A stretch of DNA of 39,918 bases. It comes from Burkholderiales bacterium. Its GTDB lineage: Bacteria > Pseudomonadota > Gammaproteobacteria > Burkholderiales > Burkholderiaceae_C. Of the stretch, positions 1-7,156 are shown piece after piece. The stretch covers positions 1-39,918 of the forward strand of contig JAFLDE010000030.1 of NCBI GenBank assembly GCA_017302655.1. Direction: 5' to 3'. Positions within the stretch are counted from its first letter, which is position 1. Every line of letters starts with the position of its first letter. The notes under the pieces are model-generated. The model did no database searches, was not told where the DNA came from, and was given only the letters and a program-made list of their open reading frames with translations. The translations under genes were made by a program, and so were the position numbers.

Positions 1-331
1 GGCCCATGGGCAGCGGGTTGCCGTCGTCGTCAAAGAGCTTGCGGATGTCGAAGAAGGCGATGCGGCTCAGGTGCGTGATGACCTTCGCGTCGTGCAGGTC
101 CAACTCGTCGCCAAGGCGCGCATTGCGTTCTGTGCGGCGCTCGCGCAGGGCGGCAGCTACGCCGGGGTTCCTCAGAAGCTTCTCGCCGGTCTGGCGCGAT
201 CCATTGGCGCTGTAGCCGGCCGCCTCGGCCGCCTTCGCGGCGTTCAGTGCCGCGGGGCCGCTCAGGTAGTGAACGACAAACAGGGCCTGCTTCTCGGTCA
301 AGCCGTTGCCGGTCAGCTTCTTGCCGCTCAT
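1..331 (-). CDS. Phage terminase small subunit (partial, runs off the left edge)
   Basis: About 110 N-terminal residues are visible; the 3' end is outside the window. The protein opens with MSGKKLTGNGLTEKQALFVV, then a stretch rich in Asn/Ala/Lys (LNAAKAAEAAGYS) and LRNPGVAAALRERR. This is the usual N-terminal pattern of the Terminase_2 small-subunit family, whose helix-turn-helix recognises phage DNA for packaging. The start ATG overlaps the TGA of the preceding polyvalent gene by four bases (ATGA), implying translational coupling. It is the only packaging gene visible and marks the element as phage-derived. Identity is by recognition of the family pattern. Whether a large terminase subunit follows cannot be seen. 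Confidence 0.8.
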   Translation of the reverse strand, partial: MSGKKLTGNGLTEKQALFVVHYLSGPAALNAAKAAEAAGYSANGSRQTGEKLLRNPGVAAALRERRTERNARLGDELDLHDAKVITHLSRIAFFDIRKLFDDDGNPLPMG

Positions 332-2283
332 TGGGGGGTCTCCTTGGTCTTGGCGTGGTCGCGCATGAAGATGTCGAAGGTTTCGTTCCAGGCGTTCAGC
401 ACGTCGCGGACCTGAATGCGGATCCAGGTCAGGTTGGCTAGCTTCGGGCTGCTGTTCTTGATCTCCTCGCCGAAGTCCTCCACCTGGGTGCCGACTCGGC
501 CCCAGTAGCGCTCCTCGGCGGTGTAGAAGTCGTTCGCCTCGGTGATGGCGCCGCCCTGCTCGCGCACCGCATCCACCGCCTGCTTCCAGCGGTTGTAGCG
601 GTCCTGCATGTTCTGCTGGACCCTGCGCATGTTGGTGAACTCGGGCAGCTCAAACCCTTGGTTTGAGGAGCGAGAGAACCGGGGCATGTCCTGGCCTGGC
701 CCGGTGTAGTTGGAGGCGATGAAGTTGATGAGGTCGCCATACCCAAGTACACTCCGGTTGTTGATGGCCCGCTGGATGTTCGTCATCAACAACGTGAACT
801 TGTCCGAAGGCGGTCGGGCAATGCGGGGGCCAGTGTTCAGCCGGCCATCTGCCCCGCCCGGGGAAACCTGGGGGCTCAGATTGGCGTCGAGTGTGCGTGC
901 CAAATCCCCGAAGTGAACGGCAAGCGGATCGGTAATGCTCGGCCCAGTCGAGACAGCCCGGTCGCCCAACGGGAGCGAACCAGCCCCGCCCTGCGAAAGC
1001 TCGGCGGGGTTTTTCTTGCCCATCACGGACTCCATGAGCCCGAGGTCCGCATAGAGCAGGCGACCATTGCGGCTTGCCGCCACTGCCGATGGCAGCTCGG
1101 CCAGCAGCTTTCCGTCACCGTATGACGACTTGATGGCCGTGCTCTTGATTTTCCCGCTCTCGGCGTCGGTGATGAAGGCCATCATCAGCGGCTGCCCCGT
1201 CTGCTTCGACAGCAGCGGCAACAGCACCTCAAACTCACCTTTGACATTGCCGCGCATCACCACCATCGGGCGGTAGATCGAGGCAATGAAGTCCTCTGGC
1301 GAAACGCCGACGAACTCGTTGGCGTGCTTGCCGTCGCGCTCGTCTTGGTTCGCCAGCGATGCCGTCTTCCCTCGGTCGAGCAGCACCTTGCGCAAGATGC
1401 TTGTGTTGATCTGCAGCGCCTGCATGGGTGCGCCGAGCATGTGCAAGACGTGCGGCTGAGGACCGATGGGCAGTGGCAGGTTCTTGGCCAGCTCCGTAGG
1501 CGGCAGGTCAGACCAGGCCCTGATGACCTTTGCCGCTCGCCCGGTCATTGCTGCCACCGCGGAGGCCGGGTTGACCTTCTTCAGCGAACGATTGATGGCC
1601 TGCAGCTCGGACTCAAGGGCCGGCAAGCTGTAGCGGATGTCTGGGTTCTCGGGGTCGAACTGGCCGTTGTTGCCGATGGCGGACTTGATCTGCTCGGGCT
1701 TGAAAGGAATCGCCCACAAAGTGACCCCGCCGCGTCGAGCGACCACGCCGTCATACCCCCGGGCGGCAAGCTCCTCCGCGTAGCCCTCGTCGATCTCGGT
1801 CAGCTCCGAGCGGCTCTCCTCGTCAATCTCGTCGCTTGCCTCGTAGGGTCGCTTGATGGTGATGTAGACGGGCTGGACAGGCCCACGACCAGCGTAATCG
1901 CTGGCCTCTTGCGGGTCTTCAGTGAAGTAGGCGGCCGGCGCAAATGCGTCCACAACGCCGCGCTTTGCTCCGTGGTACATAACCAGCGGCTTGCCCTGGG
2001 CGTCCACCACCTTGGAGTCGCCGAACCAGCGCTTGAAGGCTGGCGTCTCAGTCTGGTCAACGACGCGCCTCGTCGCACCCAGAAACAGGTCCGGGTGCTG
2101 CTCGCGGATCAGCTGCTCCATCTCCGCGGTTTCGGCCAGCGCCTCGTCGTAGAGCGCCTGCGCAGCGGACTCGCGTGCGGCCTGCTGGTCGGAGCCCATG
2201 CGCATGAGGCGCTCGATGCGCGCCAGCAGGGCATCCTCGGTCGCATCAGGCAGTTTGAGGATGGATTCGATGCTTTGGGTCAT
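328..2283 (-). CDS. Phage-type polyvalent protein: ADP-ribosyltransferase-like and MuF-C-like domains
   Basis: 651 aa from the ATG at 2283, which has GAGGAA a few bases upstream. The open frame extends 58 codons further, but that part is proline/arginine-rich and lies over another gene. Residues about 60-215 look like the ART-PolyVal domain of phage polyvalent proteins: FKRWFGDSKVVDAQGKPLVM, then YHGAKRG, AYFTEDPQEASDYAG and, at the end, NGQFDPENPDIRYSL. Residues about 245-410 (PLPIGPQPHVLHMLGAP, then QINTSILRKVL) resemble the MuF-C/PBECR group. The C-terminal region (residues about 510-620) resembles a large-polyvalent-protein-associated domain such as LPD38. Such proteins are thought to enter the host with phage or element DNA and modify host targets; this is family knowledge, not shown here. 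It is short for the class, which often exceeds 1000 aa, and may be a reduced version. It overlaps the genes on both sides. Confidence 0.72.
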   Translation of the reverse strand: MTQSIESILKLPDATEDALLARIERLMRMGSDQQAARESAAQALYDEALAETAEMEQLIREQHPDLFLGATRRVVDQTETPAFKRWFGDSKVVDAQGKPLVMYHGAKRGVVDAFAPAAYFTEDPQEASDYAGRGPVQPVYITIKRPYEASDEIDEESRSELTEIDEGYAEELAARGYDGVVARRGGVTLWAIPFKPEQIKSAIGNNGQFDPENPDIRYSLPALESELQAINRSLKKVNPASAVAAMTGRAAKVIRAWSDLPPTELAKNLPLPIGPQPHVLHMLGAPMQALQINTSILRKVLLDRGKTASLANQDERDGKHANEFVGVSPEDFIASIYRPMVVMRGNVKGEFEVLLPLLSKQTGQPLMMAFITDAESGKIKSTAIKSSYGDGKLLAELPSAVAASRNGRLLYADLGLMESVMGKKNPAELSQGGAGSLPLGDRAVSTGPSITDPLAVHFGDLARTLDANLSPQVSPGGADGRLNTGPRIARPPSDKFTLLMTNIQRAINNRSVLGYGDLINFIASNYTGPGQDMPRFSRSSNQGFELPEFTNMRRVQQNMQDRYNRWKQAVDAVREQGGAITEANDFYTAEERYWGRVGTQVEDFGEEIKNSSPKLANLTWIRIQVRDVLNAWNETFDIFMRDHAKTKETPQ

Positions 2284-2467
2284 GGGGTTCCTCGTGGGGG
2301 TGCGGTGCGTGCCAGGGCCAGCGGATGGGCTCGGGCGGCGCGGTGTCTTTGGGGTGGCTCTGGGCCTGCTGCCAGTCGGCGACGGCGCGGGCGAGGCAGC
2401 GGCGCCAGAGGTGGCAGGCGGATGGGGTGTCGCAGCCCTGGCAGGTCGCCGGCTCAATGCGGACCAT
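2246..2467 (-). CDS. Small Cys-motif protein, 73 aa
   Basis: The start ATG at 2467 (MVRIEPATCQGCDTPSAC) has GAGG seven bases upstream. An in-frame ATG at 2479 lacks this. The gene overlaps the end of the replication-like gene by 14 bp and the start of the polyvalent gene by 38 bp, a packed phage arrangement. The only recognisable signature is C-x2-C-x-TPSAC-x5-C near the N-terminus, suggestive of a small metal-binding knuckle. The C-terminal half is proline/histidine-rich. The same CxxCxTPxAC pattern occurs in the 66-aa protein at 3533-3733. Function unknown. Its reality rests on the RBS, the packing and the shared motif. Confidence 0.55.
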   Translation of the reverse strand: MVRIEPATCQGCDTPSACHLWRRCLARAVADWQQAQSHPKDTAPPEPIRWPWHAPHPHEEPHDPKHRIHPQTA

Positions 2468-3149
2468 GCCGTACCTCACTGGCGATCCGCCTTCGCTCCT
2501 CGCGTTTTTCGTTTCTGTTGCGCCAGGCCAGCTGTGCGTCAGTGAACTGCGCCACCTCGACGGCGGTGGCGACGGAAACCGGCACAGCAGATGGCTTCTC
2601 TAGATGGTGTCCGCCTGGCGGAACAGGCAAGGGGTCAAAAGCGGTCCGGATAGGTCCGCCAGACGGAACAGGACGCACGGTCCTTGTTCCGCCACACGGG
2701 CCAATGGGCTTGCCTTCTGTTCCGCCAGGCGGATTAAGCGATGCGTTTTTCTTGAGCCGGTATGCGCCTCGCACAAAGGCTTCGCTGACTCCTGGGTCAA
2801 AGCGTGGATGAGGGTCGAGCCGCCGCCAGGTCACCGCATACCAGCCGGCCTTGTTCGGTCGATGGCCCTTCACGGTCTCGAAGATGAGTTCGGCTTCCAG
2901 CAGCTCATGCTTCGCGCGGTTGATCACGTCCGCCGACTTCCAACCGCGCTTGGCCAGGTAGGCGCGACTAGCGAGCAACTGCCCGTTGTTATCCCTAACA
3001 AACTGCCGAGCGATCTCCCACAGCAGGGAGCGAGCAGGATGGCTCAGCGACTGGTACGCCGCACAGTCGAGCACGGGCCAGGGCATGGCAACGAAGCTTT
3101 CACCGTCGCGTCCCTCGTCCTTGCCACGGCGCGCACGTTCACGGCCCAT
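2454..3149 (-). CDS. Phage replication-like protein with winged-helix N-terminus (lambda O-like organisation)
   Basis: 231 aa. The ATG at 3149 has a strong GGAGGG five bases upstream. Residues about 18-110 begin SFVAMPWPVLDCAAYQSLS, followed by a helix-rich region (LLWEIARQFVRDNNGQLLAS, then AYLAKRGWKSADVINRAKHE) and GWYAVTWRRLD. This is the pattern of the winged-helix proteins often annotated as phage or island replication proteins. Residues about 135-185 form a Pro/Gly linker with four P-x-G-G units, encoded by four palindromic DNA repeats at 2610-2733. The C-terminus is charged (RNRNEKREERRR). By analogy with lambda O, the N-terminal domain could bind the repeats inside its own gene. That role is inference; a transcriptional regulator is the alternative. 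Confidence 0.6.
   Translation of the reverse strand: MGRERARRGKDEGRDGESFVAMPWPVLDCAAYQSLSHPARSLLWEIARQFVRDNNGQLLASRAYLAKRGWKSADVINRAKHELLEAELIFETVKGHRPNKAGWYAVTWRRLDPHPRFDPGVSEAFVRGAYRLKKNASLNPPGGTEGKPIGPCGGTRTVRPVPSGGPIRTAFDPLPVPPGGHHLEKPSAVPVSVATAVEVAQFTDAQLAWRNRNEKREERRRIASEVRHGPH
2610..2733. repeat. Four 18-bp palindromic repeats (candidate replication iterons)
   Basis: Copies lie at 2610-2627 (TCCGCCTGGCGGAACAGG), 2655-2672 (two mismatches), and inverted at 2683-2700 (four mismatches) and 2716-2733 (one mismatch). Each holds a hyphenated dyad TCCGCC-N-GGCGGA, perfect in the first and last copies. Dyad centres are 45, 33 and 33 bp apart. They sit inside the replication-like gene, all in the same reading frame, so each also encodes Pro-x-Gly-Gly. 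A slightly AT-richer stretch follows at about 2733-2755. Could be origin iterons, an operator cluster, or merely a repetitive protein linker. Confidence 0.6.
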
Positions 3150-3179
3150 GACGCCCTCCGTCGGGCTGCGGACTGGCGT

Positions 3180-3479
3180 TCATGCGACGTCCTGCTCCTG
3201 GCCCAAGGTGTAAATCACGGTTGGGCGCGCGAAACCTCGGGCATCGAGATACCTGCATGGCTCGCTATGGACGATCACCCCGGCCTGCCTCAGCTCGAAA
3301 ACCACGGCCGCAGCGTTGCGCATGCCCAGGTGCTGCTCGGCTTCGGCCGGCGTGATGGACCCGAGGGCCGCAAGCGCGTCCAGGATCAGTTGCTGCTGGT
3401 GGTGCATCGCAAAGCCTGGGCACTTCGCATAGATGGCGGCCAGCTGCTCAAGTTGATGGGCCAACAGCGGCTCTCGCAT
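3180..3479 (-). CDS. Small winged helix-turn-helix protein (HTH_39-like)
   Basis: 99 aa from the ATG at 3479 (MREPLLAHQLEQLAAIYAKC). The frame is open to 3644, but the extra N-terminus is Arg/Ser-rich and overlaps the upstream gene. Residues about 32-70 read LDALAALGSITPAEAEQHLG, then AAAVVFELRQAGVIV, a compact winged-helix resembling the HTH_39 family common in prophages and islands. The C-terminus (PTVIYTLGQEQ) fits the wing. It lies 53 bp after the small Cys protein and 30 bp before the replication-like gene. It may be an operon regulator or an accessory DNA-binding factor; its target is unknown. Confidence 0.65.
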   Translation of the reverse strand: MREPLLAHQLEQLAAIYAKCPGFAMHHQQQLILDALAALGSITPAEAEQHLGMRNAAAVVFELRQAGVIVHSEPCRYLDARGFARPTVIYTLGQEQDVA

Positions 3480-3532
3480 TGGCGGCTCACGCCTAGCCCT
3501 GGCAGCAGCGACGGTGCGGCTGTCGGGGCCGC

Positions 3533-3733
3533 TCACAGCAGACCCCCTTGAGCGCGCGCCGTGGGGACTGCGGACAGCCTGGGATGACGTGCCGGCGTGG
3601 TCGGCTTGTCGCACTCGGCGATGGGTCGCCAGCCCTCGGCGCACTCGGCATCGGAGGCGTTCTGCTGGGCATGCCAGCAGGCGGCCGGCGTGATGCAGTC
3701 AGGGCACCCGGTGAAGGCGATGCGGGGTTCCAT
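3533..3733 (-). CDS. Small Cys-motif protein, 66 aa
   Basis: The start ATG (MEPRIAFTGCPDC) overlaps the alpA stop by one base (TGATG). GGAGG lies inside the end of alpA seven bases upstream, so it is almost certainly coupled to alpA. The motif C-x2-C-ITPAAC-W at residues about 10-20, plus a later Cys, matches the motif of the 73-aa protein at 2246-2467. The tail is rich in Pro/Ala/Arg. No named family recognised. The Cys spacing suggests a small metal-binding fold. Function unknown. Confidence 0.6.
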   Translation of the reverse strand: MEPRIAFTGCPDCITPAACWHAQQNASDAECAEGWRPIAECDKPTTPARHPRLSAVPTARAQGGLL

Positions 3734-3951
3734 CACTTGGCCTCCGCTGCTTTGGCGTCGGCCCATGCCTTCACATCCGCAGCGCGCCAGGCTGTGAGGC
3801 GCGGCCCCAGCTTCACAGGCGAAGGAAACTCCCGAGCCGACACCATGCGCCACAGCTCGGCCGGGCTGATCGGCAGCAGGCCCTGACGCTTGGGGCCCTT
3901 TCGACGGCCCGTGCTGGTGATGTCGGCCAGCCGGTAGTAAAGGGGTTGCAC
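3733..3951 (-). CDS. alpA: AlpA-family phage/island transcriptional regulator
   Basis: 72 aa, GTG start at 3951 with GGAG about seven bases upstream. It begins VQPLYYRLADITSTGRRKGP, followed by LLPISPAELWRMVSAREFPSP, VKLGPRLTAWRAADVKAWAD and a short Ala/Lys tail. This is the compact MerR-like winged helix of the AlpA/excisionase group. In P4-like elements and Gram-negative phage-inducible islands such proteins activate excision or the island's genes. It is the first gene of the packed leftward series (alpA to terminase), separated from the 165-aa gene by 73 bp. That gap contains the palindrome CTCAG-CGT-CTGAG (3978-3990) and is a reasonable place for the promoter. Confidence 0.85.
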   Translation of the reverse strand: MQPLYYRLADITSTGRRKGPKRQGLLPISPAELWRMVSAREFPSPVKLGPRLTAWRAADVKAWADAKAAEAK

Positions 3952-4522: not shown

Positions 4523-4616
4523 GCGCTCCCTCGCGCCCCCCTGAAGGAGAAGCCGCGCCAGCCTGCCAGGGCTGCAGGCGTTCGGGAGCTACCCTAGGCG
4601 CGGCCTGTTCAGTGAA

Positions 4617-5834
4617 TCAGGCGGTGCGAGCAATGGGGACCACGTTCCCGCCGCTTTCCATCTCAGCCACCATGGCACCCCATGCATCCATCATTCGGCG
4701 TCGCTCGGCCAGGTGCTCGCTGCGGGCATAGGCGGCCACGACCTTGTTGCGCTCGGCGTGGTCGAGCTGTCGCTCCATCGCGGCCACTGTCCATTCGCCG
4801 CCCTCGCTCAGGATGGAGCGCGCACTGGCCCGGAAGCCGTGCAGGGTCTGCCGGCCTTTGTAGCCCAGGCGCCAGAGCATGCGGCCCATGGTGTTCTCGC
4901 TCATGAAGTCCTTCTCCCCGGTGACGTTGGGGAACAGGAAGGGCGAATGGCCGGTGAGTTGCTGCAGCTCGCTCAGGGCATCCAGCGCTTGAGCTGAAAG
5001 GGGCACGATGTGCGCCTGGCTGAGGCCCTTGCCGGCCTTCATCCGACCGGCTGGGATGCGCCATTCCCGGGCCTCGAAATCAATCTCGCTCCACAGGCCA
5101 AGGCGCAACTCCTGGGACCGAACAAAGGTTAGGAGCGCAAGCCGCGTCGCCAACAGGGTGATGCGGTCAGCGCTCTTGAAGTCGCGCAGGTCGCAAAGGA
5201 ACGCACCAAACTCGCGCCGCGAAGTGAGTGCAGGACGATGCTGTACGGCCGGGACTGAGAGCGCATCGCGCAGGTCTCTGGTCGGGTCGCTCTCCAGCTT
5301 TCCCTCTTGGATGCCGAACCTGAACACCTGGCCGGCCACTTCTCGCATCCTGGTGGCTGTGTAGGCCACTGGAATGGCGCGCAGCGCTTTCAGCAACTCG
5401 GGGGGCTTGATGCTGGCTGCGGGGCGGACACCGAGCTTCGGGAACAGGTGCTGCTCCAACTGCCGCAGGGTCTTGGTCGCCGTGCTTTCGCTCCAGGTCT
5501 TGGCCTTGTGGGCGTGCCACGCCAGGGCAAGAGCCTTGAAGCTGTTGGCAGCGTCGCCCAACGCCTTGGCTTTCTGCTCTGCGCGCTGTTCGCCGGGGTC
5601 CACCCCATCCCGCAGCGCCTTGCGGGCCGCTGCATGCGCCAACCTTGCCTCGGCGAGCGACACCTCAGGAAAGACCCCCAGCGCCAGGGTCTTGCGCTTG
5701 CCCAGGTGGCGGTAGTCGAACCGCCAATACTTTCCCGACTCTTTCACCAGCAGGTACATGCCGCCGCTGTCAGCGAGCTTGTAGGGCGCCTCTTTGGCGG
5801 TGGCCTTGGTGCAGTTGATGGCGGTGAGCGGCAC
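4617..5834 (-). CDS. int: P4-type tyrosine integrase (DUF4102 arm-binding domain plus catalytic domain)
   Basis: 405 aa using the GTG at 5834, which has AAGGAG seven bases upstream and begins PLTAINCTKATAKEAPYKLA, the standard opening of P4-type integrases. An ATG at 5951 would add 39 unrelated residues. Residues about 1-90 are the arm-binding DUF4102-like domain (ADSGGMYLLV, YRHLGKRKTLALGVFPEVSL). The middle is the SAM-like core-binding domain. The C-terminal half holds the catalytic set: R in FVRSQELRLG, the HGFR motif, H in QLDHAERN and the nucleophile Y in AAYARSEH. It lies just inside the tRNA-Thr junction and is transcribed away from the tRNA, the typical placement for integrating at a tRNA 3' end. 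Confidence 0.95.
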   Translation of the reverse strand: MPLTAINCTKATAKEAPYKLADSGGMYLLVKESGKYWRFDYRHLGKRKTLALGVFPEVSLAEARLAHAAARKALRDGVDPGEQRAEQKAKALGDAANSFKALALAWHAHKAKTWSESTATKTLRQLEQHLFPKLGVRPAASIKPPELLKALRAIPVAYTATRMREVAGQVFRFGIQEGKLESDPTRDLRDALSVPAVQHRPALTSRREFGAFLCDLRDFKSADRITLLATRLALLTFVRSQELRLGLWSEIDFEAREWRIPAGRMKAGKGLSQAHIVPLSAQALDALSELQQLTGHSPFLFPNVTGEKDFMSENTMGRMLWRLGYKGRQTLHGFRASARSILSEGGEWTVAAMERQLDHAERNKVVAAYARSEHLAERRRMMDAWGAMVAEMESGGNVVPIARTA

Positions 5835-5845
5835 GGGAGACTCCT

Positions 5846-5909
5846 TGACGGTACGCGGGGCCAGGTGGGCGGCGCATACCGTCACCCGTACCGCCAGCGC
5901 TGACGGTAT
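5846..5909. promoter_or_regulatory. Three TGACGGTA-type motifs upstream of int
   Basis: TGACGGTA occurs at 5846-5853 and extended to TGACGGTAT at 5901-5909, with the inverted copy ATACCGTCA at 5876-5884. The last two form a 9-bp inverted repeat with 16 bases between arms. They lie immediately upstream of the chosen int start. They may be integrase arm sites, AlpA/excisionase sites or an operator controlling int. Confidence 0.45.
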
Positions 5910-5952
5910 TTCATGATACGCAGTGATGCCTCGGGAGTCTAAAGCGGCCATG

Positions 5953-6020: not shown

Positions 6021-6096
6021 TGGTGCCGGCTATCCGAATCGAACGGATGACCTACCGCTTACAAGGCGGTTGCTCTACCAACTGAGCTAAGCCGGC
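6021..6096 (-). tRNA. tRNA-Thr (anticodon TGT), probable element attachment site
   Basis: A complete cloverleaf on the minus strand. The acceptor GCCGGCT pairs with AGCCGGC, followed by the encoded ACCA end. The D-arm is AGCTCAGTTGGTAGAGC. The anticodon stem ACCGC/GCGGT encloses loop CTTGTAA, giving anticodon TGT (Thr). The T-arm contains GTTCGATTC. The 3' end points toward the integrase, so the element's attachment site is expected in the 3' part of this gene, which remains intact. The gene starts only eight bases after the sspB stop, so it may be co-transcribed with sspA-sspB and processed out. Confidence 0.97.
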
Positions 6097-6539: not shown

Positions 6540-7156
6540 CAGCGGCGCATCACCTTTTCAGACGGCGTCAACGCTTCGATGAAGGCTGGCCGGCTGAAGA
6601 TGCGTTCGGCGTACTTCAGCAGCGGCGCCGCGTTCTTGCTCATGTCGATGCCGTAGTAGTCCAAGCGCCAAAGCAGCGGGGCGATCGCCACATCAAGCAT
6701 GCTGAAGTCGTCGCCCAACATGAACTTGTTCTTCAGGAAGATCGGCGCCAGTTGCGTGAGGCGATCGCGGATCTGGTTGCGCGCCTTCTCCAGCAGCTTG
6801 TCGGCAGGCTTGGGGCCGCCGGCGCGGTTCTCCAGCACATTCACGTAGGCGAACAGTTCCTTTTCGAAGTTCAGCAGGAACAGGCGCACCCGGGCTCGCG
6901 CCAGCGGATCACCAGGCATCAGTTGCGGGTGCGGGAAACGCTCGTCGATGTACTCGTTGATGATGTTGCTCTCGTACAGGATGAGGTCGCGCTCCACCAG
7001 GATGGGCACGTCGTTGTACGGGTTCATCAGCGCGATGTCCTCGGGTTTGGCGAAGACATCCACATCGCGAATTTCGAAGTCCATGCCCTTCTCGAACAGA
7101 ACGAAGCGGCAGCGGTGCGAATAGGGGCAGGTGGTGCCCGAGTAGAGAACCATCAT
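6539..7156 (-). CDS. sspA: SspA, stringent starvation protein A
   Basis: 205 aa with a glutathione-S-transferase fold lacking obvious enzymatic function. In E. coli SspA binds RNA polymerase and contributes to stationary-phase and acid-stress responses. The thioredoxin-like N-terminal domain starts MMVLYSGTTCPYSHRCRFVL and has NPYNDVPILVERDLILYES with the cis-proline. The helical C-terminal domain (FLLNFEKELFAYVNVLE, LGDDFSMLDVAIAPLLWRLD) follows. The first ATG is used because GGAG lies eight bases upstream. It sits downstream of petABC, from which it is separated by an intrinsic terminator, and forms a pair with sspB. Confidence 0.95.
   Translation of the reverse strand: MMVLYSGTTCPYSHRCRFVLFEKGMDFEIRDVDVFAKPEDIALMNPYNDVPILVERDLILYESNIINEYIDERFPHPQLMPGDPLARARVRLFLLNFEKELFAYVNVLENRAGGPKPADKLLEKARNQIRDRLTQLAPIFLKNKFMLGDDFSMLDVAIAPLLWRLDYYGIDMSKNAAPLLKYAERIFSRPAFIEALTPSEKVMRR

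Follow-up and report, generated by a model that had tools for sequence, protein, structure and literature searches.

We have analysed four palindromic repeats that lie inside rep, a putative replication gene of a Burkholderiales bacterium, in a window of 39,918 nucleotides (the whole stretch of DNA under study). The repeats are best read as the iterons of an origin from which an integrated phage-satellite-like element would replicate, with the origin located inside the gene of the very initiator that would bind it, and we put the probability of this reading at about 0.85. Comparison between homologous loci shows that the array is kept at the DNA level, independently of coding, and also that its half-sites change together with the recognition region of the Rep protein.

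The array and its host element

The features discussed below are the following.

2..331, minus strand: terminase small subunit, cut by the contig end (PF03592, E=3e-17)
328-2457, minus strand: protein with a polyvalent-type ADP-ribosyltransferase domain (ART-PolyVal, E=2.7e-18), immediately downstream of rep
2454..3149, minus strand: rep, a 231-residue initiator-like protein with an N-terminal winged-helix-like domain and a linker that spells the sites
2589..2609, minus strand: CACCATCTAGAGAAGCCATCT box after site 4 (the conserved CATCTAGA box), with a CTA triplet at +13..+15 in 29/31 loci
2610..2622, minus strand: site 4, inverted, a perfect dyad within the 17-nt unit 2610-2626
2636..2641, minus strand: T-tract (CTTTTG) between sites 3 and 4, with TTTT there in 21/31 loci
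2655..2667, minus strand: site 3, inverted
2688..2700, minus strand: site 2, oriented as site 1, its outer half degenerate
2721..2733, minus strand: site 1, the first in coding order, a perfect dyad within the 17-nt unit 2717-2733
2743..2750, minus strand: AAAAACGC block before site 1, with AAAACGC in 21/31 template-fitting loci and AAAAACGC in 15
2898..2972, minus strand: codons of residues 60-84, the helix-turn-helix region, which covaries with the half-sites (coordinates converted by hand)
3180..3644, minus strand: second winged-helix protein (HTH_39, E=3.2e-7), upstream of rep
3733..3951, minus strand: AlpA-type regulator/excisionase (PF05930, E=8.4e-7)
4539..4604, minus strand: int-alpA RNA (RF02996) between the integrase and AlpA genes, 51.2 bits against a gathering score of 35.8
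4617..5951, minus strand: tyrosine integrase of the element
6021..6096, minus strand: tRNA-Thr, the probable attachment gene, adjoining the integrase start

The initial annotation had placed four repeats here, two direct and two inverted, with centre spacings of 45, 33 and 33 bp, and the core coordinates confirm this. The site centres are at 2616, 2661, 2694 and 2727, the segments 2610-2626 and 2717-2733 form a perfect 17-nt inverted repeat, and at fixed spacing the array scores 53, compared to 44 for the best position elsewhere in the window (mean 31.0, sd 2.8). The TCCGCC-N-GGCGGA dyad that had been ascribed to each copy is perfect in two of the four, while the copy at 2655 has one mismatch and that at 2688 has three. 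The feature is also larger than had been described, as there are conserved blocks before, between and after the sites.

The window repeats are one instance of a conserved DNA element of ca 165 bp, in which two sites in one orientation and two inverted ones, with their centres 33/33/45 bp apart, are followed by the CATCTAGA box. After site 4, the template-fitting loci have CTAGA (30/31) and then CCATCT (29/31). The DNA pattern of the CACCATCTAGAGAAGCCATCT box matched six viral contigs, five of them with the Rep domain alongside. AGATGG occurs twice within the CATCTAGA box of the window (2589-2609, minus strand). On the viral contig L148, positions 4825-4945 hold about three sites and the CATCTAGA box, with no Rep domain detectable in the 5.3 kb covered; this array could be what a deletion left behind, or else an origin supplied in trans. 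In the genome to which the window belongs, a search allowing at most one mismatch gave seven iteron matches, three of which belong to the array itself; the reversed control pattern gave 15, and nothing beyond the array thus stands out in this genome.

Judged by its genes, the element is equipped like a phage satellite, either a PICI or a capsid-forming PICI. Integrase, AlpA, rep and the terminase small subunit, which make up the gene set of a PICI or capsid-forming satellite, are all present. In the relative L033, genes for capsid, protease, portal, HNH and large terminase lie downstream of rep. We identified neither a primase nor a helicase loader among the window proteins that were scanned, and the element is cut off at the contig end. 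A second copy of the 3' 27 nt of tRNA-Thr was not found in the same genome at up to three mismatches. The phrase "int-alpA RNA" was not found in the open-access literature searched. The genome also holds a second, divergent Rep homologue (L145, G000:C118:15719-15967), for which the array score is 46, with a maximum of 42 in eight shuffles.

The description of Rep as a winged-helix protein is based on family hits that are weak (HTH_36 in 4 of 40 members) and on reading of the sequence, and the window Rep itself has no Pfam or NCBIfam match. There is a weak similarity between the window Rep and phrog_270, "replication initiation protein" (E=1.6e-4), a group that is matched by 13 of the 35 aligned members. 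The "O-like" PHROGs are matched by only three and one of the 35.

Homologous arrays and the Rep recognition region

Rep matches were found in 46 of the 399 genomes searched in the family, that of the window included, and in 26 of 398 genomes across the phylum. An array is present in 39 of the 42 homologue loci, in 31 by the fixed template, in six by flexible spacing and in two by other evidence. The fixed template is 33/33/45 in coding order, and the criterion is that the rep region be the top-scoring place of its locus, as it is in 31/42. Flexible spacing adds L062, L065, L066, L067, L070 and L071, each scoring above its own null maximum. In L062, L066 and L067 the spacing is 32/33/44, not all multiples of three, and the arrays lie mostly past the stop.

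L061 has kept its rep homologue and has no array at all, and the arrays of L068 (45 against a null maximum of 45) and L069 (44 against 46) fail the flexible scan; each of these two loci encodes a single PNGG peptide. L051 has two rep pieces, near 6946 and 9494, of which the truncated one is without an array and the other has one; it is the same record range as L124 (Comamonas testosteroni CP044131), and L119 is the place of L034. L031 passes neither the fixed nor the flexible scan. It does have four GGTACAGAAACTGTACC-type sites, whose palindrome is a different one; counted from the start of the ORF they are at 416, 438, 492 and 527, on both sides of the stop at 465. The L031 record (PP003913.1, a 16-kb Pseudomonas phage record) names an integrase, cox, replication protein O and a primase, but no gene in it is named for capsid, portal, terminase or tail; L031 is perhaps a satellite.

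We have also considered viral and more distant sequences. A viral scan with the single window protein gave no relative, and the viral relatives came from an alignment query. In IMG/VR, the array is the best place of its locus in 17 of 19 loci; among these 17, the arrays of L078 and L081 are those of L045 and L048 again, and L087/L088 score weakly (44 against 41). The set of further loci had 47 scored, with three more lacking a domain hit. Ten of the 47 are accounted for by four loci already known from IMG/VR and by six relatives found with the L034 protein, which come from Hydrogenophaga, Duganella, Comamonas and an uncultured beta proteobacterium. This leaves 37 order- and phylum-level rows, in which the genomes of L094 and L096 occur again as L136 and L141; six of the 37 score 50 or more, the highest value from shuffling any locus being 45. 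In L099 and L135 one site each is unconvincing. There was no match in the plasmid collection. In the open-access literature searched, we found no description of this array.

For the half-sites, we used 46 loci: 31 with a rep-region score of at least 42 (L031 and L065 left out of this set by hand), together with L062, L065, L066, L067, L071 and ten IMG/VR loci. The set does not contain L070, L031 and L051, the redundant IMG/VR loci L072, L078 and L081, the out-of-register L082 and L085, or L087-L090, whose array is weak or missing. Within the sites, the sequence beside the central CCG...CGG varies between genomes but does so in concert over the sites. Left-right pairing of half-sites at d=4-8 is 443, compared to a permuted mean of 360.6 and a maximum of 404 (5000 permutations), and the agreement between sites is 2730, compared to 2138 when permuted (1000 permutations). 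Within a genome, the agreement among the four inner half-sites is 0.835-0.909, as against 0.564 between genomes (site 1).

The distance between half-sites follows the distance between Rep residues 60-84, with a partial Mantel r of 0.312 that was reached in 0/5000 permutations, while for the rest of the Rep domain r is -0.189. Both values are for 42 of the 46 loci, without L046, L058 and L059, which are truncated, and L080, which is gapped. A mutual-information ranking was exploratory and uncorrected. The pair L033 and L043 provides a natural example. Over the first 135 residues their Rep proteins differ at eight positions, none in 1-60, seven in 61-90, none in 91-120 and one in 121-135. The inner half-sites have switched as well, in all four cases from CGGTGTA to CGTAGTA. 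Of the outer half-sites, that of site 4 is switched, those of sites 2 and 3 are not, and that of site 1 has changed otherwise. The linker has changed along with the sites, as it must, and the overall identity is 166/193 residues.

The origin proposal and its rivals

The initial annotation had itself named an alternative, in which selection for a Pro-x-Gly-Gly linker in the protein makes the DNA repeats. All four sites do lie before the stop in 30 of the 46 loci, mostly with P-x-x-G-like peptides. Yet in 23 of 24 loci no synonymous shuffle that keeps the protein attains the observed score, and in the remaining locus one in 1000 does. The window is among the 23, with 1000 shuffles that average 43.1 and do not exceed 49, against 53 observed; as a yardstick, the annotated lambda iterons give a repeat score of 64, with a maximum of 57 in 2000 synonymous-type shuffles. 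The frame stops before the last site in 16/46 loci, with the sites still present, and before the first site in 4/46, one of which (L080) is probably a frame artefact. Since the sites are kept where the gene ends before them, it is the DNA itself, and not the encoded stretch of protein, that seems to matter. Some of the early stops may be recent, because the sites in L039-L042 and L060 keep the gene's frame beyond the stop; those in L047 and L055 do not. The linker peptides also vary widely across homologues (PPGG, PSHG, PSPG, PPDG, PMVG, PSEA or unrelated residues) while array and spacing stay, which is the outcome that had been suggested as favouring an origin, namely varying codons with a preserved DNA pattern. 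Likewise, CTA accounts for 4.3% of the Leu codons in long ORFs, yet it stands at one fixed place after the last site in 29/31 loci. A Pro-x-Gly-Gly linker repeat without DNA palindromes was noticed in none of the loci read, in an unsystematic look. On account of the shuffles, the arrays past stops and the varied linkers we reject the explanation by a protein repeat, and consider its probability negligible.

There are two further rivals. In the first, which is very unlikely, the array would work as an RNA or single-strand structure, in which the inverted sites of the transcript pair, site 1 with 4 and site 2 with 3. The strand does fold strongly (MFE -73.7 compared to a shuffled mean of -52.0, z -5.26), and the site pairs are in inverted order. 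However, a nested fold needs 1=4 and 2=3 and not 1=2, and the direct pairs agree equally well (0.909 and 0.852, compared to 0.870 and 0.848 for the nested ones); the half-sites track the DNA-binding region of Rep, in L070 the order of direct and inverted sites is retained with little palindromy, and no Rfam family reaches its gathering score over the array. Somewhat less improbable, although still unlikely, is a Rep-bound regulatory array, i.e. an operator or partition-like site that controls downstream transcription or handles the excised circle. The evidence for binding fits this equally, and a clear AT-rich unwinding region was not found: the lowest 40-bp GC near the arrays averages 0.399, against 0.424 elsewhere, and the only AT dip is one of 20 bp at 0.46 GC (locus mean 0.63) just after site 4. 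On the other hand, the sites lie in the 3' part of the gene or beyond it and not at its start, no promoter of the sigma-70-like type is found in 2300-3300, and the relatives among the PHROGs carry the name of replication initiators. For PICIs, lambda and pSK41, moreover, it is established that the origin lies within the initiator gene or just 3' of it (PMC6092414, PMC4488673, PMC5703833).

An iteron array presumably bound by Rep at the 3' part of the initiator gene is best read as an origin. The origin-type, lambda O-like interpretation of the initial annotation is supported, with the half-sites also tracking the helix-turn-helix region; binding and origin activity are inferred. In the proposed mechanism, the element would first be excised. 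Rep, probably as dimers, would then bind the four sites by its helix-turn-helix, the sites being two per orientation and about three and four helical turns apart. The bound Rep would build a nucleoprotein complex, which would recruit replication proteins of the host or of a helper phage. The Pro-x-Gly-Gly linker would be a by-product of coding through the origin, and the frames that stop before the array suggest that it may be dispensable.

On the best tree, which is weakly resolved (9/39 inner branches starred, and only two and one usable pairs in the independent-pair tests), there are at least 25 changes of half-site type, and at least 10 changes in whether all sites are in frame. The frame appears to come and go over a lasting array. 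A broader proposal, which we offer tentatively and at somewhat less than even odds, is that these loci form an undescribed class of proteobacterial phage-satellite replicons, with a constant four-site scaffold, an address code swapped repeatedly together with the recognition helix of the initiator, and a frame that grows and retreats over the origin. The driving force of this rapid switching would be incompatibility, or anti-satellite nucleases that target the origin, such as have been reported for PLE and Odn.

With the origin reading, a widespread initiator family would gain a concrete origin candidate with a readable protein-to-DNA code, and with L033/L043 as a natural pair, the specificity of the initiator can be tested directly in vitro. 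An origin-like array that outlasts the overlapping frame would also offer a simple route to the puzzling lambda-like layout with the origin inside the initiator gene.

Comparison with known systems

Among satellites, the closest parallels are those of PLE and the PICIs. In the PLE satellites of Vibrio, the DNA-binding domain of RepA covaries with the iterons, with proven function (PMC8263062, PMC7145576). This resembles the present case of a satellite initiator that covaries with its iterons, but the PLE ori is intergenic and has three semi-palindromic iterons of ~30 bp. The word "iteron" is absent from the accessible part of a paper on Vibrio satellites (PMC10803314). For Gram-negative PICIs, the origin is placed just 3' of rep (PMC6092414). 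EcCICFT073 shares the order of AlpA, integrase and rep followed by iterons; there, however, two iteron sets flank an AT-rich region, while here one four-site array is present with no clear region of this kind.

The layout itself recalls lambda and pSK41. In lambda, four iterons within the O gene are bound by the amino-terminal half of the protein (PMC4488673), and here too there are four imperfect palindromic iterons inside an initiator gene. The lambda iterons are direct repeats with starts 20-24 bp apart and an AT-rich stretch beside them, whereas the present sites are spaced 33/33/45 bp, two facing two, and a clear AT-rich stretch was not found; no sequence relation of Rep to O is detectable (hhalign probability 0.9% for the Rep profile, against lambda O alone). 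In pSK41 there are four Rep boxes centrally within rep, the encoded linker being dispensable (PMC5703833). The location of the sites within the gene, seen here in 30/46 loci, may be a likeness. The Rep domain profile has one weak match to solved structures, 4pta, a replication initiator (E=0.016), which is grouped with the staphylococcal RepA_N proteins in PMC7145576. Against this, Pfam RepA_N matches none of the 40 Rep members at E<=0.1, and the present elements are integrated and Gram-negative. By analogy, Rep would so work like lambda O and pSK41 Rep, yet it is filed in neither family.
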